A stretch of DNA of 64,000 bases. Origin: Planctomycetota bacterium (GTDB taxonomy: Bacteria; Planctomycetota; Planctomycetia; Pirellulales; Pirellulaceae). The first letter of the stretch is position 1; every line of letters begins with the position of its first letter. Under the pieces are notes generated by a model. The model saw only the letters and a program-made list of their open reading frames with translations, had not been told where the DNA came from and searched no databases. The stretch covers positions 124,001 through 188,000 of the forward strand of contig JAPLNI010000028.1 in the NCBI GenBank assembly GCA_026692865.1, written 5' to 3'. Shown piece by piece: positions 23,227 through 38,778 of this stretch. The translations under genes were made by a program, and so were the position numbers.

Positions 23227-25446
23227 ATGATCCAACATCACTTACCGTATCGCGCGTGTCATCGTTGTGGATTAGTACATGATCTAGCTGCATCGATTGG
23301 CGAGAGCGCTTCGGCGTATAGCAAGTGGAAGTGTACTCGCTGCGATGCAACGTTTGCGAAGTGGATCGACAATCAAAAATCAGCCAATCGCACGATGGCT
23401 CTTGCAATAGCGGCTCTGGCGTTTTTCATCCCGGCGATTTGGCTTCCGCTGCTTACCATCGAACGCATGGGCATTCGGCATCGCACCAGTCTCCTCCAAG
23501 GTACCTGGGATTTGATCCGCGAGGGGAACTGGTTTGTTGGATTGATTGTGTTGATTTTTTCAATCCTATTGCCGGTCGCGAAGTTGGTTGGGTTGATCGA
23601 GCTTTCATGGTGGGGCGTACTGAAAAAGCATCATCAGGCAACACTCCTGCGAGTCGTGGAGTTCGCTGGGCGATGGAGCATGATGGATGTGTTGCTTTTA
23701 GCGTTGCTGGTGATGACTGTTAAAATTGGCGAGCTAGTCTCGTTTCATCTGGGGCCTGCTGTGGTAGCCTTTGTCTTGTGCGTTGTGCTCAACATGATGG
23801 CTTCGTTAAGCTTTGACCCGCACTCCATCTGGGACGATCAACCGAGCTTGCAAAGCATGAACTCAAAACCAAAATCTGAAGCAACTTCGGTAACGCTTAA
23901 TTCGGCAAATACACCTGTGAATGCATCTGCAAATACATCTCCTGTCGCGATCCCTCCGGCTGCTTTGGAGACCAAACCGGGAGTCGATATATCCAATCCA
24001 GGATCGTATGTGCGTTTCTCGAAGTGGTGGATACTGACCGCCATGAGTCTAGCGATCTCGGTCGGCCTGATTGCATGGACTGTTGGATCGCGAGGTCCAT
24101 CGATCGAAATACGTTTTCGTGATGGCTACGGGATTCATCCGGAATCGATTGTGCTTCATCGAGGCATCGAAGTTGGATCGGTTACGGACGTTCGACTGGA
24201 TCCATCGTCCGAGGGAGTTGTTGTGACGGTTTTACTGACGAAGGAAGCCGCGATCGTGGCAACCAAGGGAAGTCAATTTTGGATTGAACGACCTCAAATC
24301 AGTACCAAAGGCGTGAAAGGACTGGACACGATTATCGCCGGACCTTACATCGCAGTTCGAGTCGGAAAAGGAGCGAATCAGCCACCAACGAAAACCGCAC
24401 AATTTTTCAAAAGTGCTTCTCCTCACTTTGAATTTGTTGGACTGGAATCGCCTCCGAGTCGTGAGAGTGACGAAGGATCTATCGAGATTATGCTCGAGAG
24501 TAGTGATCGATTCGGTTTACAAAATGATGCACCTGTGGTGTACCGAGGTGTCGAAGTTGGTCGTATCGTTAGCGTGGGACTCTCACGCGATGGAAGGTGG
24601 TTTCAAGCTCGCGCGAGTATTGATTCGAAATACCGAGAATTGATTCGCGAGAACTCCGTATTCTGGAATCGCAGTGGACTTCGAGTTGATGTGGGGCTGG
24701 GCGGTGTTGCAGTCGACGCGGAGAGTATTTCGGCGATGGCTGCTGGGGGAATCGAGTTTGCCACCCCGAATGAACCTGGTCCGATCGTGAAGACGGGCCG
24801 AAGATTTGAGATGTTTCGCGAACCAGAGCAAGAGTGGACCCAGTGGCGACCGAGACTGATTCATGGGGTATCGAACAGTTTCATTACGAGCGGCTATCCA
24901 ACTCCCTATCGAATATCGCTTCGTTGGCGAGAGTCCTTTTACGGCTTTGGGCAAAGCAAGGAACGCAATGGATGGATTCTGTTACTGGACGATGGTACCG
25001 TGCTCGGCCCGCAAAACCTTTTGAAGGAACCTGACAAGGCGACTCCCGGCAGCGTGACTTGGGAGATCGCAGGGCTTCAGCTTTCACACGAGGCACTTTC
25101 CATCAAAGACGCAACATCGCGAGTATCGATCGCAAAGCTTCCAGACGACTTGGAACGATGGCCAATCGCACGCGTCAACGGTCTGCTTCCGAAAATTGCT
25201 ACCCAGGCCAAGCAAAATGAGCTCAACGAGTTGGTGATCATCGATGGTCCACCAGGATTACCAATTCCGATCGAGTCGTTTCAATTAGAAGTGGTGGATT
25301 CTAACGAACGAACAGTCCTTTCGACGATGGGATTAACGGAATCGCATCACGGATTGCCCGTACTGGATCTTCAGTCGGAAATGATCGTTGGGTTGATCGA
25401 TTATGATCCGGAAAACAACGAAGCTAGTATTCGTTGGCTGCAATGA
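23227..25446 (+). CDS. PqiA-PqiB (MCE/MlaD) fusion protein
   Basis: A 739-residue inner-membrane protein combining two partners that are normally separate. Residues 1-205 are PqiA-like: a zinc ribbon (Cys11/Cys14 in CHRC, Cys36/Cys39 in CTRC) and four helices, with IWLPLLTIERMG and ILLPVAKLVGLIEL. After a Ser/Thr/Asn-rich linker, a fifth helix at about 267-287 is followed by two MCE domains at about 290-380 (LHRGIEVGSVTDVRLD) and 420-510 (VYRGVEVGRIVSVGLS). In E. coli PqiA and PqiB form a lipid-transport bridge across the periplasm, and the same role is likely here. The last 200 residues are not MCE (see findings). PqiB normally has three MCE domains. Confidence 0.87.
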   Translation: MIQHHLPYRACHRCGLVHDLAASIGESASAYSKWKCTRCDATFAKWIDNQKSANRTMALAIAALAFFIPAIWLPLLTIERMGIRHRTSLLQGTWDLIREGNWFVGLIVLIFSILLPVAKLVGLIELSWWGVLKKHHQATLLRVVEFAGRWSMMDVLLLALLVMTVKIGELVSFHLGPAVVAFVLCVVLNMMASLSFDPHSIWDDQPSLQSMNSKPKSEATSVTLNSANTPVNASANTSPVAIPPAALETKPGVDISNPGSYVRFSKWWILTAMSLAISVGLIAWTVGSRGPSIEIRFRDGYGIHPESIVLHRGIEVGSVTDVRLDPSSEGVVVTVLLTKEAAIVATKGSQFWIERPQISTKGVKGLDTIIAGPYIAVRVGKGANQPPTKTAQFFKSASPHFEFVGLESPPSRESDEGSIEIMLESSDRFGLQNDAPVVYRGVEVGRIVSVGLSRDGRWFQARASIDSKYRELIRENSVFWNRSGLRVDVGLGGVAVDAESISAMAAGGIEFATPNEPGPIVKTGRRFEMFREPEQEWTQWRPRLIHGVSNSFITSGYPTPYRISLRWRESFYGFGQSKERNGWILLLDDGTVLGPQNLLKEPDKATPGSVTWEIAGLQLSHEALSIKDATSRVSIAKLPDDLERWPIARVNGLLPKIATQAKQNELNELVIIDGPPGLPIPIESFQLEVVDSNERTVLSTMGLTESHHGLPVLDLQSEMIVGLIDYDPENNEASIRWLQ

Positions 25447-25464: not shown

Positions 25465-26592
25465 CTAGCCACGTGCAAGAGCATCCGACTGTTGAACGAA
25501 ATCATCACCGTCCCATTGAGCGTCGGCGGTGATCATCTTCTTCTTCGATTCAGCCTTCTTCGCAGCGCGAGCTTCCGCTTGGCGCTTCACCAAATCAGCG
25601 TGCGTGGTAAAGAATGGCAAGCTGTATCCTTTGAAGTCAGCAAGCGTTTCAAATTTGTGCTTCTCCATGAATGCAAGAAGTTCTTCGCACATGGGCTGCA
25701 CCATTCGATAGCCTTCCTTCATCACACCCGTACATACCTGAACCGTATCGGAACCGAGCAAAATAAATTGAGCAGCATCCTCCCCGGTTTCGATCCCACC
25801 CATACCACTGAGCGTGCGGCCAGGAAACTCGCTTCGAATCATTTGCGATATTTCCATGCACATTCGAAGCGCGATCGGTTTTACCGCTTGGCATGAATAT
25901 CCACCGGGCGTGGTATACCCTTCGACCGATGGCTCCGGTCGCAGTGTATCTAGATTCACGCCCAGGACACTGCGAATCGTGTTGATTGCCGAAACACCAT
26001 GAATACCCGCTGCGAGACTAGCTCGAGTCGGGTCCTCGATATGCGTTACGTTCGGAGTCATCTTTGCCCACACGGGTTTTTTTGCGACTGCCATAACCCA
26101 TCCACAGACTTCACGAAGGATCACTGGATCTTGTCCCATAGCGGCTCCCATCTTGCGTTCAGGAAGACCGTGCGGGCACGAGAAGTTAAGCTCAAACGAA
26201 TCAACACCTGCATCCTCGCACTTCCCAACCAGTTCATGCCATGCGTTCTCGTTGTACTCTTCCATAATGGACGCAATCAAAATTCGATCAGGATATTCAT
26301 CTTTGATCTGTTTGAATTCATCGAGCCAAATACTGAGATCACGGTCACTAATAAGCTCGATATTCTCCCAGCCATAAATCTCACCGCTGGTACGACTACG
26401 AAGCCGTCCGTAACGCGGTTGAACGTTGACCACCTTCGATGCATCCAGTGAAACTGTCTTGCAGATGACCGCTCCCCAGCCTTCGTCAAAGGCCTTACCG
26501 ATCACGTTTGCATTGGTTCCTGGAGGACCGGAGCCGATAATAAATGGGTTGGGTAGCTTAAGTCCGTCGACAACTGTTTCAAGCGTTGGCAT
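25465..26592 (-). CDS. preA: NAD-dependent dihydropyrimidine dehydrogenase PreA-like flavoprotein
   Basis: A 375-residue FMN TIM-barrel of the dihydroorotate dehydrogenase class I family. NPFIIGSGPPGTNANVIG is the FMN-binding start and FELNFSCPHG holds the active-site Cys region of dihydropyrimidine dehydrogenases. The barrel end LSGMGGIETGEDAAQFI binds the FMN phosphate. It should reduce uracil or thymine to the dihydro form, or oxidise in reverse. E. coli PreA has a C-terminal 2[4Fe-4S] ferredoxin domain, but here the tail (ARAAKKAESKKK, then DDFVQQSDALARG) has no cysteine cluster, and no preT is adjacent. It precedes a class III aminotransferase in the other direction of synthesis, consistent with pyrimidine catabolism. 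Confidence 0.85.
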   Translation of the reverse strand: MPTLETVVDGLKLPNPFIIGSGPPGTNANVIGKAFDEGWGAVICKTVSLDASKVVNVQPRYGRLRSRTSGEIYGWENIELISDRDLSIWLDEFKQIKDEYPDRILIASIMEEYNENAWHELVGKCEDAGVDSFELNFSCPHGLPERKMGAAMGQDPVILREVCGWVMAVAKKPVWAKMTPNVTHIEDPTRASLAAGIHGVSAINTIRSVLGVNLDTLRPEPSVEGYTTPGGYSCQAVKPIALRMCMEISQMIRSEFPGRTLSGMGGIETGEDAAQFILLGSDTVQVCTGVMKEGYRMVQPMCEELLAFMEKHKFETLADFKGYSLPFFTTHADLVKRQAEARAAKKAESKKKMITADAQWDGDDFVQQSDALARG

Positions 26593-26655
26593 CTAAATAA
26601 TGGCTTTCGAATCTAGGTGAAATGGATCTGTGTTTAACTTAGTTGATCAATGCGA

Positions 26656-28032
26656 TTATCGCTTGGGCATTGAATCCAGAACTTCATCCAACATAGCGAC
26701 AAGATAATTCGCATCATCGATCGTTATGCACATCGGCGGCTTTATTCGAAGGACGTTCCCAAAAAGGCCACCTTTTCCGATCAGCACTTGTCGTTTCTTG
26801 AGTTCTTCCATTATGGTGGCTGCTTCAGCTTTTGCTGGCTCCTTTGTAACACGGTCGCTTACCAATTCGACACCTAGCATCAATCCCATTCCGCGGACTT
26901 CACCGATAATTGCGTGCTTGTCTTGAAGGTCTTCTAAAGCACTCTTCAAATAGTCGCCGACATATAAAGCATTAGCCTGGATGCCTTCCGCATCGATGAC
27001 TTCCAGCGTCGCCAACCCTTGCGTCATCGTGATGGGGTTCCCGCCGAATGTGTTGAAGTGAACACGTCTCTTGAGGACTTCGGAGATCGGTTCCGTGGTG
27101 GTCATTGCCCCAAGCGGTGCTCCGTTACCAATACCTTTTGCCATGGTGATCACATCGGGTATCACACCCCAATTTTGGTGCGACCAATAATGATTACCAG
27201 TTCGTCCGAAGCCACCTTGGACTTCGTCTGCGATACAGACTCCGCCGTGTTGCCGAACAATGTCGTAAACGATTTGGAAGTATTCCTTAGGCGGAATCAC
27301 CGTTCCGCCAACACCTTGAATCGGTTCCCCAATGAAGCAAGCGATCTCGCCCGATGTCTCATACTGAATCACGTTCTTTACATCTTGAGCGCACTTCACA
27401 TTGCATGACGGATAAGTCAAACCATATGGGCAGCGGTAGCAGTATCCCGGATGGGTATGATGGATGTTTGCAGTGGAATTGGATTTGAATTTCCAATTGC
27501 TGTGAGCCGTCAGCCCCATCGTGCTCGATGTCCCGCCGTGATAGCAGTTTCGAAGGGCAATTACTTCACTATTACCGGTGTATTCACGGGCGGAAAGAAT
27601 TGCCATCTCGTTGGCTTCACTTCCGCTATTAGTGAAGTAACTGCGAGACAATCCCTCAGGCATCTTTTCGGCGAGCTTCTTTGCAAAAAGAGGCATCGTC
27701 GGGTTGAGGTAGATGGTGGTCGTATGCTGAAGCCGTCCGGATTGCGCTTTGACTTTTTCGAGAATTGCCGGATGGCAATGCCCAACGCTGACCGTCACGA
27801 TCCCCGCAAATGCATCGAGGTAACGGGTCCCTTGCTCGTCGTAGAGGTACTGCATGTGCCCTTCGACAATCATCAACGGATCTTTGTAATAAGTAATGAC
27901 GCCCGGGGACACATATTGATGCCGCAGAGCTATCACTTCGTCCCGACTCGGTCCGTCATACGGTTGCGGCTGATGTTCGATAACAGGAAGGGATACACGT
28001 GGCGCGGCAAGCGTGACTGCGGGGTTGGCCAT
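26656..28032 (-). CDS. Class III PLP-dependent aminotransferase, AGXT2-like
   Basis: A 458-residue enzyme of the ornithine/beta-alanine aminotransferase family. TNSGSEANEMAI binds the PLP phosphate, CIADEVQGGFGRTGNHYW holds the PLP-interacting Asp, and ITMAKGIGNGAPLG carries the Schiff-base Lys. The insert GYCYRCPYGLTYPSCNVKC is characteristic of the alanine-glyoxylate aminotransferase 2 group, which also transaminates beta-alanine and beta-aminoisobutyrate, the end products of reductive pyrimidine breakdown. That fits the downstream preA-like gene, 63 bases away on the same strand. Dihydropyrimidinase and ureidopropionase are not in the window. Confidence 0.88.
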   Translation of the reverse strand: MANPAVTLAAPRVSLPVIEHQPQPYDGPSRDEVIALRHQYVSPGVITYYKDPLMIVEGHMQYLYDEQGTRYLDAFAGIVTVSVGHCHPAILEKVKAQSGRLQHTTTIYLNPTMPLFAKKLAEKMPEGLSRSYFTNSGSEANEMAILSAREYTGNSEVIALRNCYHGGTSSTMGLTAHSNWKFKSNSTANIHHTHPGYCYRCPYGLTYPSCNVKCAQDVKNVIQYETSGEIACFIGEPIQGVGGTVIPPKEYFQIVYDIVRQHGGVCIADEVQGGFGRTGNHYWSHQNWGVIPDVITMAKGIGNGAPLGAMTTTEPISEVLKRRVHFNTFGGNPITMTQGLATLEVIDAEGIQANALYVGDYLKSALEDLQDKHAIIGEVRGMGLMLGVELVSDRVTKEPAKAEAATIMEELKKRQVLIGKGGLFGNVLRIKPPMCITIDDANYLVAMLDEVLDSMPKR

Positions 28033-30724: not shown

Positions 30725-33700
30725 TCAAATAGTGAGTGCCTTGGGAGAAACGGTCGAGCGAAAGAGGACTCCACCATAGCCTACAACGCGAGCCGAATCA
30801 CCACCGTGGCTTGCGCTGTTGTCGTAACTTACTTCCTCGGCTGTAAAGACTTCGCCCAAGTTAATAAGCGTTTGCATCACAATCGCTGCCGGAACGAGAC
30901 CGCACATGCTTATCTGGTTCTCTCTACAAACTTCGATCAATTTTTTAGGATCTCCGCTTAGCATGGCATCGATTGCAAGTCGATCTCGGCGACGATTTTC
31001 GGCCTCGCTTTCAAAGTGATTCAAATCGCTTGAAATCACTAGTAGCGGCCGCTCGGGTAAGTCGCGTAACACCTTTGCGAGTTGCTTTGATGCGAGCATA
31101 ATCTCGTCCCACGATGAGTTCTTCAGCACGATCGCGACCAGCGTCGGTCGATCATTGGACGGCGACAAAGCTTCGAGAATTGGGAGTTGCGTTTCGATCG
31201 CGTGCTCGCGTAAATGGGCTACCGAGTCAAAATCCAATCCCTCGACTTCATCAACCAGCTTCTTAGCAAGTTCCATGTTGCACAGCCAGCGTTCGCCATC
31301 TGGCAATTCCCACGCTGTTGATGGTGACATGGCCCATTCAGAACCCATCGATGTATGCTTGGGACCAATCATAAGTAACGTTGAGGGTAATTTTACGCGG
31401 CTCCACACATCCATTGCGACTTGGCCGCTGTAGCTAAGACCGGCATGTGGCGTCATGATCGCCAAGACTTGCGAGGGTGTTGACAAGGCAGGAACCTTGG
31501 CCTTGAGCTGACCAACCATTGATCGTCGGTCTTCCGCTTGGGCGGGATAGAAGGAACCCGCGATCGCTGGCATGCGGACCGTCTCGTCATTATTTGAGTT
31601 GGGTGCGTTACTCGCGAGAATTTTACTGGCGGTAGAAACATATGCCATCGAGTAGATCCCGATTGGGTTACGGCGAATTTTGACGGAATTAGCCGATTCA
31701 ACCAGTAAATCGTGCGGGCTTTTGTCGGCATCAAAAGCGATCGTTACCAGATCGCCACAAACAGCTAAAATTGCCCGTTGTGATGATTCAACACCAGCGA
31801 TCTCACAGCGGCTTAACTCGGGTTTCAGCTTGCGACCATTCCATTCATCGAATCCAATAGTGCCGTGGTGGGCTGGGTCAAAAAGGACCGAAATTACTAA
31901 ATCGATATCGGTCTGTTTTTGGACTTGAGCATTTGCAAGAAAACCTGCAGCGGATTGACAAAGCTCAAACAAACTCGATTGAAGAGGCATATCGTTTCGG
32001 ATCGATGTCTTCATCCAATGAACGAACGGTTCGCCCGATGAAGAATCGACGATTGAGAGAACAACGCCATGCACGTTCCCGTCCATTGCGTCGGGTGCGT
32101 AATAGGTTGGCGTTGCACCCATCGACATTGCGACAACATTTTGAGCGGCAACTTGCTTTAATCTTAATAGACTCGCACCGTTACCCGGTGCCTGCGCGTT
32201 GGGGAGTTCCACTGGCAGGCTGGCGTGTTCGATCGTGCCTTCAATGAGGACTCCTTCAAATGTTTCAAGGCTTGCTTCCGAATTCAACCAAGCCGACTCA
32301 GGTAGTCCCGCTTTGCGACAAACACCTTCGAGAAACTGTTGTGACGTCCAACCTTGTTCGACAGCAACGCTTGGCAGAAGGAGTCCCGCTTTTTGTCCAA
32401 GAATGATTTTCAGCCCATGCTTTCCTACTTGAACATGATCGACACGACTCTCTGGTGCTACTGTCAAAACAACCGGCGATGCGAGAAGCGAAACGTCCAA
32501 CTTCAGATACGGAAGCTCTGCTACGGAGACAGAGGGCATCCGTTTATCTTCCTTGGCTGTTCGTCGAGCTGACGAAAGGATCGCTTCACTTAGTGAGGTG
32601 GGGTGACCTAAGAAACCACAACATCCCCTCAATTGTGAACCACGGTAAAGCGTGGTGAACATCCCCATAACTTGTAATGGAGCCAAAGGTCCCAACATAT
32701 CGAGCCATTCGTTACCAAGCTTGCGATTGCAAACGGTCGCCACGACGACGAGCTGGGTCGCCTTCTGAATCGCAGTCTTTTGCTGCTCGTTCAGTTCATC
32801 GAGTTTCAGCATCGACAGGTCTCCGGATTGCAATACGGGTGTTGATAGAGATTGCGTAGACATCGATGCCTCGTGAGAAGAAATTTGCGAATCAGTGGAT
32901 GATGATAACGGAGTTTCCGTCGAAGATCGTTCGCGATTGATTAATATCGGCATGATTGGATTACTAATCTTGGCCGAAACATGCATTTGACGAAAAGAAT
33001 CCAAGTTTACGGGCTGCCGCTTACGCCCCCAATCGCCAGGAGCGTCGCCGAAACGTCCTGATTGTTTCGCGCCACACGCGATGCATTGATCACGCTTCAG
33101 TCCATACCTACCCAACTGATACCAATCGCGTTCGATAAGAAGCGCAGAACACGACCAGCAGTAGGTAGAACTCCGCGCGACATCGTGGATGTTGCCTACA
33201 TACGCGTAACTTAGTCCAGCTTGCTTTGCGATTGAGTGCGCCTGGATTAACGTTTCAGGGGGCGTTCTGGGGCGATCCATCATTCTGAAGTCAGGATGAA
33301 AGGCTGAGAAGTGGACTGGAACATCGGGCCCCAATTCATTCAAGATCCAATCACACATGCGGGTCAACTCATCCATCGAGTCATTTACATCAGGGATGAT
33401 GAGGTTCGTGATCTCAAACCAGACATCCGTTTCATGCTTTAGATAACGCAGTGTGTCGAGCACAGGTTGCATGTGAGAGTAGGTGATCTTGCGATAGAAA
33501 TCCTCCGAAAATGCTTTGAGGTCAACATTCGCCGCATCCATATGCGAGTAAAACTCTTTCCTCGCTTCTGGAGAGATATAGCCGGCCGTAACGGCAACAC
33601 TTTGAATTCCAATTGAGCGGCAAGCCTTAGCAGTATCGATGGCGTATTCCGCCCAAATGACCGGATCGTTGTAAGTGAACGCGACGCTTTGGCAACCGAG

Positions 33701-34066
33701 TTGTTGCGCTGCTTCTGCAATGAGTTCCGGTTCAGCAATCGAACTTAATTTGGCAACTTCACGGGACTTGGAGATGTCCCAGTTTTGGCAAAATTGACAA
33801 CCCAAATTACAGCCAGCAGTACCAAAGGACAGCACGCTCGTTCCGGGATAAAAATGGTTGAGTGGTTTCTTCTCAATAGGGTCGATACAGAAGCCAGTGC
33901 TTCGACCATACGTGTCAAGCACCATCTGGTTGCCTTCGACTTTTCGTACAAAGCAAAAGCCGCGGTCTCCCTCCTTCATGCTGCACTGACGAGGGCACAA
34001 ATCGCAAACGATGCGTTCGCTTCCTTCGTGGCGATGCCACCATTTTCCAGGGTGAAGTGCACTCAT
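30725..34066 (-). CDS. AmmeMemoRadiSam single-chain protein: radical SAM, AMMECR1 and Memo domains fused
   Basis: A 1113-residue cytoplasmic protein. Residues 1-300 are the AmmeMemoRadiSam radical SAM enzyme: a Cys-rich start (Cys21, 24, 28, 38) and the CxxxCxxC cluster Cys86/90/93 in GCNLGCQFCQNW. A zinc-ribbon-like part follows (Cys303/306/328/331). After a Ser/Thr-rich linker (about 380-415), residues 424-615 are AMMECR1-like with the hallmark LRGCCGFLG. Residues about 640-820 match nothing I know. Residues 831-1105 are Memo-like (AGSFYPA, MTPHAGLSYSG, SSDLNHF). These three families are usually separate neighbouring genes, and the modified substrate is unknown. It lies 24 bases after the transporter gene and 73 before fpr. 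Confidence 0.9.
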   Translation of the reverse strand: MSALHPGKWWHRHEGSERIVCDLCPRQCSMKEGDRGFCFVRKVEGNQMVLDTYGRSTGFCIDPIEKKPLNHFYPGTSVLSFGTAGCNLGCQFCQNWDISKSREVAKLSSIAEPELIAEAAQQLGCQSVAFTYNDPVIWAEYAIDTAKACRSIGIQSVAVTAGYISPEARKEFYSHMDAANVDLKAFSEDFYRKITYSHMQPVLDTLRYLKHETDVWFEITNLIIPDVNDSMDELTRMCDWILNELGPDVPVHFSAFHPDFRMMDRPRTPPETLIQAHSIAKQAGLSYAYVGNIHDVARSSTYCWSCSALLIERDWYQLGRYGLKRDQCIACGAKQSGRFGDAPGDWGRKRQPVNLDSFRQMHVSAKISNPIMPILINRERSSTETPLSSSTDSQISSHEASMSTQSLSTPVLQSGDLSMLKLDELNEQQKTAIQKATQLVVVATVCNRKLGNEWLDMLGPLAPLQVMGMFTTLYRGSQLRGCCGFLGHPTSLSEAILSSARRTAKEDKRMPSVSVAELPYLKLDVSLLASPVVLTVAPESRVDHVQVGKHGLKIILGQKAGLLLPSVAVEQGWTSQQFLEGVCRKAGLPESAWLNSEASLETFEGVLIEGTIEHASLPVELPNAQAPGNGASLLRLKQVAAQNVVAMSMGATPTYYAPDAMDGNVHGVVLSIVDSSSGEPFVHWMKTSIRNDMPLQSSLFELCQSAAGFLANAQVQKQTDIDLVISVLFDPAHHGTIGFDEWNGRKLKPELSRCEIAGVESSQRAILAVCGDLVTIAFDADKSPHDLLVESANSVKIRRNPIGIYSMAYVSTASKILASNAPNSNNDETVRMPAIAGSFYPAQAEDRRSMVGQLKAKVPALSTPSQVLAIMTPHAGLSYSGQVAMDVWSRVKLPSTLLMIGPKHTSMGSEWAMSPSTAWELPDGERWLCNMELAKKLVDEVEGLDFDSVAHLREHAIETQLPILEALSPSNDRPTLVAIVLKNSSWDEIMLASKQLAKVLRDLPERPLLVISSDLNHFESEAENRRRDRLAIDAMLSGDPKKLIEVCRENQISMCGLVPAAIVMQTLINLGEVFTAEEVSYDNSASHGGDSARVVGYGGVLFRSTVSPKALTI

Positions 34067-35224: not shown

Positions 35225-35458
35225 TCTTTCCTCAAGCCGACAAGCCAGTAGCAAACGTCCAGAAGCAAAAGTAAGGAGTAGATCATAGAAGCCAACGCAA
35301 ATTGCTTCGAGCCCCACAGGCCCCTTTCAACGCAAACTTCCTTTTAAAATCAGTCAATTAGCCGATCTCATTTTCGAAAAATTGGTAGGCGACTTAATGT
35401 TACAATAAAAATCCCGTTGTTTCTTTCATTGATTTTCTCATTTGCTTGATTGAAAAAC

Positions 35459-36580
35459 ATGCATGACGTATCGCAGGAATTCTTTGGCGGTGTTTTCAAT
35501 GACAAGATAGAAGGTGGTCGAGCAGCCGCGAAGATCTCGATTCATCCACAGGGATTGGTCGCGGAAACGCTAGAGGAGCAACGCTTTGAGATACCATTTG
35601 GCGAGTGCCAGTTGGACAAAGGTGGGGCAAGCGGACGCATGATCTTCTGCAGAAACAACGATCGCAGCATCACGCTGTTTTGCGAAGAGCGGGGTTTTCC
35701 CAAAGCACTCGAATCTCTGTCGCTGGGTGCATTTTCAGGCCAGTTGCGAGCAATCCAACAAAAGCAACGTGGACATGAAAAGACATTCTGGTTCTGGCTG
35801 ACTGTCGGCTCTGTCATGACTTTGATTGCGGGCGTAATCGGATACTACGCATTGATTGCGACCACGCAAGCAGCAGTTGCTGCTTTACCAATCAGTATCG
35901 ATGAAAACATCGGCAGTGTCGCGATCAAGTCGGTAGAGCTTCATGCTCGATTGGATGCAGGACATGTGGCGACGAAACTAGTCAACGACATCGTCAAAGA
36001 GCTTGAACCACACAGTGCTATAAAAGGGTTGAACTTTCGTATCATGGTGGTTGATGAACCAACCGTGAATGCTTTTGCGCTTCCAGGTGGTCAGATCGTG
36101 GTATACACGGGCTTAATCAAGAATGCAAAATCTGCGGAGCAACTGGCGGGAGTCATCGCCCACGAGATGGCTCACGCGACGCTCCGTCATGGACTCAAGG
36201 GAGTTGGGCAATCACTCGGAATCATCGCTGCGATCCAGTTAGTAACAGGTGATGTCGGCGGGCTGTTAGCGCTGAGTACCCAGCTTGCGCAAGAGTCGAT
36301 CCTCACAAGCTATAGCCGAAAATCGGAAACCGAAGCAGACTTAGAAGGTGCTCGAATGCTTCACGAAGCGGGTATTGATCCGAAGAACATGGCTGACTTC
36401 TTTCAGATGCTCGAAAAGCTTGAAGGGGACATTCCAGATTTACTAGCTTGGATCAGCACCCATCCTCAACACGCCGACCGAATCGCGAGAATCGAGAATT
36501 ACCAAAAACAACTTCCGCAAAAGCCGTATAGGCTACTTGAGCTACCGTGGGAGGAAGTTCAAAATCAGCTTGCGAATTAA
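35459..36580 (+). CDS. M48-family zinc metallopeptidase, membrane-anchored
   Basis: A 373-residue protein. Residues 1-105 form a small beta-rich N-terminal domain (ISIHPQGLVAET, FEIPFGECQL). A transmembrane helix lies at about 113-135 (FWFWLTVGSVMTLIAGVIGYYAL), then the M48 catalytic domain with HEMAH beginning at His235 (GVIAHEMAHATLRHG) and the third zinc ligand Glu in SRKSETEADLEGARML. It resembles bacterial Oma1/HtpX-like quality-control peptidases. I preferred the ATG at 35459 over an in-frame TTG at 35450. Three AIM24-family genes follow at once, suggesting a shared envelope or stress function. Confidence 0.88.
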   Translation: MHDVSQEFFGGVFNDKIEGGRAAAKISIHPQGLVAETLEEQRFEIPFGECQLDKGGASGRMIFCRNNDRSITLFCEERGFPKALESLSLGAFSGQLRAIQQKQRGHEKTFWFWLTVGSVMTLIAGVIGYYALIATTQAAVAALPISIDENIGSVAIKSVELHARLDAGHVATKLVNDIVKELEPHSAIKGLNFRIMVVDEPTVNAFALPGGQIVVYTGLIKNAKSAEQLAGVIAHEMAHATLRHGLKGVGQSLGIIAAIQLVTGDVGGLLALSTQLAQESILTSYSRKSETEADLEGARMLHEAGIDPKNMADFFQMLEKLEGDIPDLLAWISTHPQHADRIARIENYQKQLPQKPYRLLELPWEEVQNQLAN

Positions 36581-36618
36581 AGCATGTTTCTCTTCATTCG
36601 ATTTTGACTAGGCAACTT

Positions 36619-37272
36619 ATGGAAGTCACAATACGCAACGCGCCGTCCTTCGCTAACCTTTTGGTCAATCTTTATCCTGGTGACCGCATTGTCGCCGAAG
36701 CAGATGCGATGGCCAGCATGAGCAGCGGCATCGAGATGACGACTCGATGGAATGGGGGCGTCTTTCGTGCAATCGCGAGAAGAATCTTCGGGGGCGAATC
36801 GATATTCGTCAATGAATTCAAATCTACAAAGTCAGGGCACATCGTAATAACACAACCTTTTCCCGGTGACATGGCCTGCCTTGAGCTGAAAGGAAACACC
36901 ATGTTCCTTCAGCCCGGTGCGTACATTGCAAGTGAACCGCAAGTCACTCTCGGACTCGGTTGGGCTGGCATTCGCAGCTTCATCTCGGGCGAAGGACTGT
37001 TTCGTATGAAGGTCAGTGGCTACGGACGGGTTTGGTTCGGTGCGTACGGCGCGATCTTTACTCGCGAGGTCGAAGGTGAATACATCGTCGACACGGGGCA
37101 TTTAGTCGCCTACGAACCGACAATTGGGATACGTGTCGGAATGGCCGGCGGGATCTTTTCGAGTTTCTTTGGCGGCGAAGGGCTCATCACACGCGTCAAT
37201 GGTCAAGGCAAAATCTACATGCAGTCGCGTTCCTTCGAAGGCTTAGCGGCTTGGACGAATGCACATCTCTAA
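36619..37272 (+). CDS. AIM24/TIGR00266-family protein, paralogue 1
   Basis: A 217-residue all-beta protein of the TIGR00266 (AIM24, DUF124) family. It keeps the family layout of repeated beta motifs: DAMASMSSGIEM near the start, FGGESIFVNEF, SGEGLFRMKVSGYGRV, then VDTGHLVAYEPT and FGGEGLITRVNGQGKIYMQSR. The frame is open from 36547, overlapping the peptidase gene, but the ATG at 36619 gives the normal start MEVTIRNAPSF, 38 bases after the peptidase stop. Function in bacteria is not established; the mitochondrial homologue Aim24 supports inner-membrane organisation. First of three tandem copies. Confidence 0.88.
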   Translation: MEVTIRNAPSFANLLVNLYPGDRIVAEADAMASMSSGIEMTTRWNGGVFRAIARRIFGGESIFVNEFKSTKSGHIVITQPFPGDMACLELKGNTMFLQPGAYIASEPQVTLGLGWAGIRSFISGEGLFRMKVSGYGRVWFGAYGAIFTREVEGEYIVDTGHLVAYEPTIGIRVGMAGGIFSSFFGGEGLITRVNGQGKIYMQSRSFEGLAAWTNAHL

Positions 37273-37311
37273 ATCGCCCAAGAAAAACCAACCACGAAGG
37301 GATGATCCGAC

Positions 37312-37995
37312 ATGAAACATGAACTACTCTGTCAGCCAGCCGCTACTGCGATTCGATTCTCGCTCGAGCAAGGAGATGAATTGACGTGTGAAGTTGGTGC
37401 AATGATTGCGATGACAAAAGGAATTACCGTTGATACGACTTCGAAAAGCCGTGGCGGTAGTGGAGGAATCATGAAGGGATTGAAACGGATGTTCTCTGGT
37501 GAGAACTTCTTCCTGAACCATTTTACAGCTCAGCAACCAAATCAATCGCTGATCATTGGCCCGACAATGTTGGGTGACTGCATACACCACGCGCTCTCAG
37601 GCGGGTCCATGATTGTGCAAGGATCAAGCTGGGTTGCCTCCGATAGTGGCATTCAAATCGACACGACCTGGCAAGGTTTCAGCTCAGCATTCTTCAGTGG
37701 CGAATCCATGTTTTGGGTCAAGTGCTCCGGTGCAGGCAATTTGTTCTTGAGCAGCTACGGTGCGATCTATTCAGTTGAAGTCGATGGCGAATATACCGTC
37801 GATTCAGGTCACATCGTCGCCTTTGAAGACACTCTGCAGTTTCGAATAGGCAAGGCCGGCAAAAGTCTTATCGGAAGCTTCCTCGGTGGTGAAGGCTTAG
37901 TGTGTAAGTTCTCAGGTCGGGGTACCTTGTACTGCCAAACCCATAACCCACCCAGCCTCGGTAAACTCCTTGGACCTAAACTAAAACCGCGTTAG
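37312..37995 (+). CDS. AIM24/TIGR00266-family protein, paralogue 2
   Basis: A 227-residue paralogue that differs from copy 1 by a Gly/Lys-rich insert (SRGGSGGIMKGLKRMF) before the FSGENFFLNHF motif and by the start MKHELLCQPAATAIRF. It keeps VDSGHIVAFEDTLQF and FLGGEGLVCKFSGRGTLYCQT, the latter with two cysteines absent from copy 1. The ATG at 37312 lies 39 bases after copy 1. The low identity between copies implies old duplication and different partners or ligands. Confidence 0.88.
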   Translation: MKHELLCQPAATAIRFSLEQGDELTCEVGAMIAMTKGITVDTTSKSRGGSGGIMKGLKRMFSGENFFLNHFTAQQPNQSLIIGPTMLGDCIHHALSGGSMIVQGSSWVASDSGIQIDTTWQGFSSAFFSGESMFWVKCSGAGNLFLSSYGAIYSVEVDGEYTVDSGHIVAFEDTLQFRIGKAGKSLIGSFLGGEGLVCKFSGRGTLYCQTHNPPSLGKLLGPKLKPR

Positions 37996-38079
37996 TCCTT
38001 CATGTGAATTGGCTAACTCGACTCGTTCATGTTCACGTTCATTCGACAACAGTGCATCCTAAGCTAGCAAGTGACCGCC

Positions 38080-38778
38080 ATGACAAACGCACTCGACTAC
38101 AAAATTGATTTTCGACCAGATTTCTCGCTCTTGACAGTAAACCTGCAACCGGGCCAAAAAGTCCACGCCGAACCCTCTGCGATGGCATCTATGAGTCCGA
38201 CGCTAACGATGAAAGCGGCTCTCAAAGGGGGGGCGATGAAATCGCTTGGAAGGATGTTTGGCGGCGAAAGTATGGTCGTCAATACGTTTACAGCATCCAA
38301 AGGGCCCGGCGAGGTGATCTTCGCTCCAGGGCATCTTGGCGACACCCAGCACTATCGCTTAACTGGTGGATCGCTCATCCTCCAGCGTGGAGCCTTTATG
38401 GTGCATAGCGAAGGAGTCGAGATTACTGGCAAGTGGCAAGGAGCAAAAGGTTTCTTTAGCGGTGAGGGACTGGTATTGCTGAAAGCAACAGGGACCGGCG
38501 ATGTTTTTTTCAACTCCTACGGTGCAGTCATAGAAGTTGATGTTACCGACAATTACGTTGTCGACACTGGCTACATCGTCGCCTTTGAAGACACACTCCA
38601 ATATCAAATTACAACACTGCCAGGCTTACGAGGCGGCGGTATAAAACGCCTCTTCTTCAGCGGCGAAGGACTTGTCTGCCAATTCTCTGGTCAAGGTCGA
38701 CTTTGGATTCAAACTCGATATGTAAACCCTTTTTTGTCGTGGATCAACCGGTTCCGACCCACTACGAAAAACGATTGA
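38080..38778 (+). CDS. AIM24/TIGR00266-family protein, paralogue 3
   Basis: A 232-residue third copy, MTNALDYKIDFRPDFSLL, with SAMASMSPTLTMKAAL, FGGESMVVNTFTA, FSGEGLVLLKATGTGDVF and VDTGYIVAFEDTLQYQI. Its C-terminus FSGEGLVCQFSGQGRLWIQTR is closest to copy 2. A GTG at 38071 is an alternative start three codons upstream. The 84-base gap before it is longer than the gap between copies 1 and 2. The gene is followed by the duplicated hairpin region at 38795-39051, which may end the transcript. Confidence 0.88.
   Translation: MTNALDYKIDFRPDFSLLTVNLQPGQKVHAEPSAMASMSPTLTMKAALKGGAMKSLGRMFGGESMVVNTFTASKGPGEVIFAPGHLGDTQHYRLTGGSLILQRGAFMVHSEGVEITGKWQGAKGFFSGEGLVLLKATGTGDVFFNSYGAVIEVDVTDNYVVDTGYIVAFEDTLQYQITTLPGLRGGGIKRLFFSGEGLVCQFSGQGRLWIQTRYVNPFLSWINRFRPTTKND

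Follow-up and report, generated by a model that had tools for sequence, protein, structure and literature searches.

The AmmeMemoRadiSam system is represented by three protein families, a radical SAM enzyme (TIGR04337), the AMMECR1-like protein A (TIGR04335) and the Memo-like protein B (TIGR04336). Earlier authors mention Memo-Ammecr1 systems that include a radical SAM domain (PMC7159879), and archaeal AMMECR1 is named among the priority uncharacterised families (PMC6393860). One structural study reports crystals of MEMO1 in which H49, H81 and C244 coordinate iron or copper; dioxygenase activity was, according to its authors, undetectable with the substrates tried, and MEMO1 is linked there to cancer (PMC11081632). 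For AMMECR1 a syndrome has been named (PMC6969169). A paper from 2025 presents Memo-like proteins that are predicted to be fused to peptide recognition elements (PMC12710340), which gives a hint, no more, that the substrates might be peptides. The literature searched yielded no established reaction for MEMO1 or AMMECR1 and no paper describing the fusion reported here, for which an earlier description is possible, most likely in the 2019 JBC study of Memo and LigB relatives by Burroughs and others.

In the window, that is, the whole stretch of 64,000 nucleotides that was analysed, the three families are found in a single polypeptide. The initial annotation had proposed an open reading frame of 1113 residues at 30725–34066 and was silent on the strand; the frame is present there on the minus strand, and the plus strand of the same interval contains many stops in the frame read. 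The three joined families that it named all score above their curated cut-offs in this chain, also in the domain search that it had suggested (TIGR04337, PF01871, and PF01875), whereas its count of domains falls one short, with a fourth domain at about residues 613–829 having been overlooked. The residues that it had singled out, namely Cys86/90/93, LRGCCGFLG from Leu479, and the Memo motifs from residue 831, are all where it placed them. The domains are referred to below as S (radical SAM), A (AMMECR1), X (the fourth domain), and B (Memo), and the L and G codes denote loci and genomes. A search of the organism's own genome gave this one match to the fused gene only. The S-A-X-B chain is a variant of the already known, uncharacterised AmmeMemoRadiSam system, and its features are as follows.

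30725–34066, minus strand: whole fused gene, 1113 residues; ATG start at 34066, stop codon ending at 30725, no internal stop.
33002–34045, minus strand: AmmeMemoRadiSam radical SAM domain (S), residues 8–355; TIGR04337, 595.3 bits (cut-off 220), E 3e-179.
33788–33811, minus strand: cluster motif C86-x3-C90-x2-C93; each Cys kept in 32 of 32 chains.
32819–32977, minus strand: low-confidence linker, residues 364–416; pLDDT <50 in the full-chain model.
32243–32788, minus strand: AMMECR1 domain (A), residues about 427–608; PF01871, 118.5 bits (cut-off 25), E 3e-34, over 466–605.
32615–32632, minus strand: LRGCCG motif, residues 479–484 (C482); R480, C482, and G484 in 32 of 32 chains.
31580–32230, minus strand: domain X, residues about 613–829; AMMECR1-fold model without LRGC, from AF2, structural matches, and hhalign.
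30761–31576, minus strand: Memo domain (B), residues 831–1102; TIGR04336, 218.6 bits (cut-off 26), E 9e-65.

By score and by its CxxxCxxC motif, S belongs to the AmmeMemoRadiSam radical SAM family, and SAM cleavage and a 4Fe-4S cluster are predicted for it. Eleven of its cysteines (21, 24, 28, 38, 86, 90, 93, 303, 306, 328, and 331) are kept in all 32 chains and C60 in 28 of them. The 32 chains are full-length, include three without detected X, four with another radical SAM clade, and near-copies such as L033/L045, L034/L035, and L048/L050, and leave out the partial or broken loci L042, L043, L046, L047, L052, and L055, the short loci L002–L007, L110–L119, and fused genomes without retrieved loci. 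The A domain, whose start was set at a predicted helix (427–445) of the full-chain model, also scores above TIGR04335 (108.2 bits, cut-off 99) and matches the fold of 1vaj with a TM of 0.77 by target (Foldseek of the full-chain model). Its residues R480, C482, G484, D507, R509, and K585 are each present in 32/32 chains, H550 in 31/32, and C483 in 28/32; residue 481 of the LRGCxG motif is variable, with LRSC or LRAC in some rows. The B domain is also above PF01875 (154.9 bits, cut-off 27, over 833–1100) and matches MEMO1 in the same Foldseek comparison with a TM of 0.82 by target. In a profile alignment with 7kq8, H874, H904, H955, D1014, H1017, and C1055 of B, each kept in all 32 chains, correspond to MEMO1 H49, H81, H131, D189, H192, and C244, respectively, so that H874, H904, and C1055 form a putative His-His-Cys metal site. 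A phmmer search against solved structures places archaeal AMMECR1, human MEMO1, and a PFL activase at the corresponding parts of the chain. The AF2 model of the full chain has a pTM of 0.56, and residues 83–90 and 92–105 around the cluster motif have pLDDT <50; a domain arrangement read from this model was rejected as not interpretable at that pTM.

Domain X matched no PDB chain by sequence. Against Pfam, member 1 of its alignment had no match and no AMMECR1 family was among those listed for 26 members; scattered hits to other families (best E 0.014–0.17, in 1–3 of the 26) were taken as chance, and X as a known Pfam family was rejected. The AF2 model of residues 606–836, built with an alignment of 26 relatives, is confident (pLDDT 85.3, pTM 0.78), and its top three structural hits are AMMECR1 entries, 1vaj (Z 12.9, rmsd 3.4 over 168), 1zq7 (Z 10.1, rmsd 5.5 over 168), and 1wsc (Z 8.3, rmsd 6.0 over 175). 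They are followed by two designed proteins that cover half the domain (Z 6.7 and 4.9), and the best natural protein outside AMMECR1 has a Z of 4.0. Foldseek gave E values of 4e-5 (1zq7) and 5e-4 (1vaj) with modest TM values of 0.39–0.53. Comparison of X with AMMECR1 by hhalign gave 163 collinear columns with a probability of 44 and a score of 34.3, and comparison with stand-alone AMMECR1 only (14 rows) gave a score of 28.5 over 169 columns with a probability of 13.7. Among the controls, the highest score of 60 column-shuffles was 19.8 over 30 columns, whereas reversed AMMECR1 gave 12.9, X reversed gave 17.2, and radical SAM gave 14.0; the Memo profile exceeded the shuffles with 24.9 over 49 columns, possibly because the X and Memo rows have a few boundary residues in common, and also gave 23.7 over 8 columns. 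The profile evidence for X as an AMMECR1 domain is therefore weak by itself, and the claim of an AMMECR1 fold is carried by the predicted model. The segment between A and B has no LRxC in any of the 29 chains that contain X, nor in the two whose segment is undecided. We read X as a second, dead AMMECR1-fold domain of predicted fold, which may have arisen by duplication. In L135 and L137 a gap of about 190 residues shows no significant match to X or AMMECR1.

The initial annotation had left open how common the fusion is and had proposed a search for it in other genomes, which found it repeatedly. Among 79 loci returned by the search of genome contigs, 22 carry S, A, X, and a complete Memo domain in one open reading frame, and the remainder include loci that are broken or cut by contig ends; 21 of the 22 are 46–70% identical to the query over the chain, and L031 reaches 91% in its best segment. 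In a sample of 297 genomes of the class Planctomycetia, TIGR04337 scored above its cut-off in 76, and 47 of these 76 have it within a single open frame of at least 947 residues, 44 with X and three (G248, G452, and G508) without detected X. Domain X is present in 47 of the 297 genomes, including three (G167, G376, and G451) in which it is not fused to a full S-to-Memo chain. Because of these two counts, the S-A-X-B architecture is ordinary within Planctomycetia. In a sample of 392 genomes of the phylum, X was present in 13, all within Planctomycetia. One further genome, G488, has an AMMECR1 fragment at the end of the contig that carries its radical SAM gene, in an open frame of equal length (548); this is probably a cut fusion. 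An error of sequencing or assembly that joined separate genes, the danger that the initial annotation had named, has nothing found in its favor and is refuted, since the complete S-to-Memo architecture recurs in those 22 loci from many assemblies and the long frame is found in 47 of the 297 sampled genomes, including single-contig ones such as G048, G069, and G303.

The genes that flank the fusion in the window, a reductase-like gene, RibD, and EamA, are shared only with the nearest relative, L031, among 28 other loci compared, several of which have short flanks; an electron-supply operon as a general feature was rejected on this ground. A search of plasmids gave four records with partial matches covering 15–20% of the query.

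The same pieces also occur in other arrangements. In L139–L142 a separate S gene adjoins an A-B gene without X, in L136 the chain is S-A-B (944 residues) without X, and in L120 an S gene adjoins A-X-B. In G376 and G451, S and A-X-B lie at different places of the genome, and the 501-residue S protein of G451 retains part of X directly after S. Several Planctomycetota carry A and B on contigs other than that of S. Of 31 genomes picked from among those lacking the usual fusion, 24 gave a match to AMMECR1 and 28 to Memo; in two of the 31 (G513 and G510) S is present with no match to A or B, so that S may act there without A and B, which counts against strict dependence. All trees are quick trees with SH-aLRT support only, and many of their forks within Planctomycetia are weak. 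One group (support 99) unites the S domains of the 32 rows labelled as fused with that of the split G167, and the variant arrangements lie within and around this group.

Family f101, four genomes (L131–L134), carries A-X-B joined at the same end to an S domain only 32–35% identical to that of the window. In a tree of concatenated A and B sequences, realigned before tree building, the four are nested within the planctomycetal clade, with a support of 99 for the four themselves and of 89, 91, 99, and 100 for the successive groups outward. Their S domains fall together with eight stand-alone genes from other Planctomycetota (support 100), and the nearest found have 54–61% identity. A constraint that unites the f101 S domains with the remaining 25 planctomycetal ones has a cost of 285.4 log units (p-AU 2e-100), where the constrained groups had been named after earlier trees had been seen; as a control, the 25 without those of f101 already form one group (support 98). 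An earlier tree with few relatives of the f101 S domains had placed them, on a long branch, next to L105 (support 89). As read from these trees, f101 is a second joining, or a swap, of a radical SAM domain at the same end.

The initial annotation had argued from the fusion that the three families act as one machine. A functional link of S, A, and B is supported, because the fusion is retained across the class, the catalytic residues are kept in 32/32 chains, and a distinct S clade sits on the same A-X-B body; covalent linkage, however, is not essential and can be dispensed with, since relatives from this order and class have the parts in separate genes or at scattered places. Relatives have these pieces combined, separated, and combined anew, which makes cooperation of the three families likely. 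Our main reading, to which we give a probability of about 0.5, is that S, A, and B belong to one pathway and, when fused, work as one multi-step enzyme. It is further favored by the B-A fusions of Nitrospirota and Bifidobacterium loci, which unite two of the three families in the opposite order; against it speak the absence of X in L136 and L139–L142, the split linkage in L139–L142, G376, and G451, the two genomes with S and no match to A or B, and the presence of Memo and AMMECR1 in eukaryotes without S. The reading rests on two S clades joined to the same body, on active sites that are kept, and on the single copy. In such an enzyme S would make a 5'-deoxyadenosyl radical and alter one substrate, C482 of A would hold or react with an intermediate, and the Fe(II) site of B (H874/H904/C1055) would perform a redox or a C-C or C-X bond step. 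Domain X could serve as a scaffold or a pseudo-dimer partner positioning A and B, and the linker at 364–416 may be disordered, in which case S would be able to reach the A/X/B block.

Alternatively, the fusion might merely fix the expression and the 1:1:1 stoichiometry of one pathway, with neither channelling nor direct cooperation of the active sites, as would fit the split (L139–L142 and L120) and unlinked (G376 and G451) arrangements in the same order, the long low-confidence linker, and a dispensable X. Operons usually suffice for co-expression, and two distinct S clades attached at the same position to one body, together with a fusion in 47/76 genomes, would be harder to understand on that basis, so we regard it as unlikely. 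Still less probable to us is that S modifies its own A or B in cis, maturing the LRGCxG motif or the Cys of Memo in the way that PFL-type activases modify proteins. Such activases are indeed the best structural matches of S among radical SAM proteins (Foldseek; 3cb8, TM 0.75 by target), and S scores 55 bits with the PFLA model TIGR02493; the LRGC motif is also kept, however, in eukaryotic AMMECR1, where there is no S, and a catalytic activase would presumably need no 1:1 fusion. The same PflA-like character of S could be taken to mean that the chain is an activase of a glycyl radical enzyme, extended by accessory domains. This is very improbable: the 55 bits lie far below the cut-off of 232 and compare with 595 for TIGR04337, and the organism's own genome, 99.4% complete, had no match to the glycyl radical domain PF01228 in a search that, as a control, found this domain in 3 of 14 known genomes. 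Within the reach of that search, a partner encoded in the own genome is refuted, which leaves the activase reading unsupported.

Returning to the multi-step enzyme, the one-chain form may tentatively be seen as a selected modular assembly line, with a fixed A-X-B body, a dead AMMECR1 pseudo-dimer scaffold, and an interchangeable radical SAM domain, in which the f101 body would have lost its original S and taken a distant one; we consider this possible, at somewhat less than even odds. If it is true, both radical SAM clades would yield one common product for the same AMMECR1/Memo sites, and coupling in cis would itself be under selection. Conservation of MEMO1 and AMMECR1 extends to humans, in whom both are linked to disease, and a single chain that brings all partners in one ratio and in one expression construct offers a ready system for finding the reaction. 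The natural variants without X, with split genes, or with the other radical SAM module provide built-in controls for domain knock-outs, and the dead AMMECR1 copy offers a testable idea on AMMECR1 dimers or scaffolding.

When the chain is compared with known proteins, S has the radical SAM barrel in common with PflA, whereas it meets the TIGR04337 cut-off, misses that of PFLA, has further sets of conserved cysteines (C21/C24/C28/C38 and C303/C306/C328/C331), and comes without a glycyl radical partner found in its own genome. The A domain has both the fold and the LRGC motif of archaeal AMMECR1 (1vaj PH0010, 1zq7 MM0484, and 1wsc ST0229), whereas X has the fold by model, without LRGC and with 8–11% identity in the structural alignments. 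The profiles of B and human MEMO1 align over nearly the whole length of MEMO1. In contrast to the class III extradiol dioxygenases (LigB and DesB), which have a Glu at this position according to the MEMO1 study, B has Cys1055 in 32/32 chains, as does MEMO1 (PMC11081632), and the His-His-Glu ligand set of these dioxygenases is not found in B. Compared with the AmmeMemoRadiSam system, which is elsewhere often encoded by separate genes, all three families score above their cut-offs here with the catalytic residues kept, and the locus in the window differs in being one chain, in the order S-A-X-B, with X added as a domain of predicted AMMECR1 fold.

Two loci of relatives of the one-chain AmmeMemoRadiSam protein carry a segment between AMMECR1 and Memo, and two genomes in which the radical SAM protein is separate from an AMMECR1-X-Memo protein (X being the predicted AMMECR1-fold domain without LRGC) hold further arrangements of these domains:

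L135:6477-7097, segment of about 190 aa separating AMMECR1 from Memo
L137:2640-3260, segment of about 190 aa, likewise separating AMMECR1 from Memo
L123:5630-7135, radical SAM protein of genome G451, with part of X immediately after the radical SAM domain and without AMMECR1
L130:808-2493, Memo-AMMECR1 fusion of genome G167, order reversed, 561 aa

The L135 and L137 segments share 29% mutual identity, and profile comparison of both with X and with AMMECR1 gave no significant similarity; they are possibly a more diverged X. The partial X in G451 may either have been left over from an ancestor that carried the fusion or stem from an independent joining to the radical SAM domain. In G167 the reversed fusion is present in addition to the split genes.

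Downstream of the fusion gene, and separated from it by 73 bases, lies a reductase gene with an NAD-binding domain (PF00175; 29905-30651). The reductase could supply electrons to the radical SAM cluster of the fusion, a conceivable role, but among the 28 other loci compared, several with short flanks, the pairing is repeated only in that of the nearest relative (L031).

Also encoded in the window are:

23227-25446, single 739-aa protein combining PqiA and MlaD domains
35450-36580, M48 peptidase gene, adjoining the AIM24 tandem
36547-38778, + strand, three tandem genes of the AIM24 family (PF01987)
25465-28032, - strand, dihydroorotate dehydrogenase-family gene beside one for a class III aminotransferase

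The last pair possibly functions in pyrimidine or beta-amino acid degradation.
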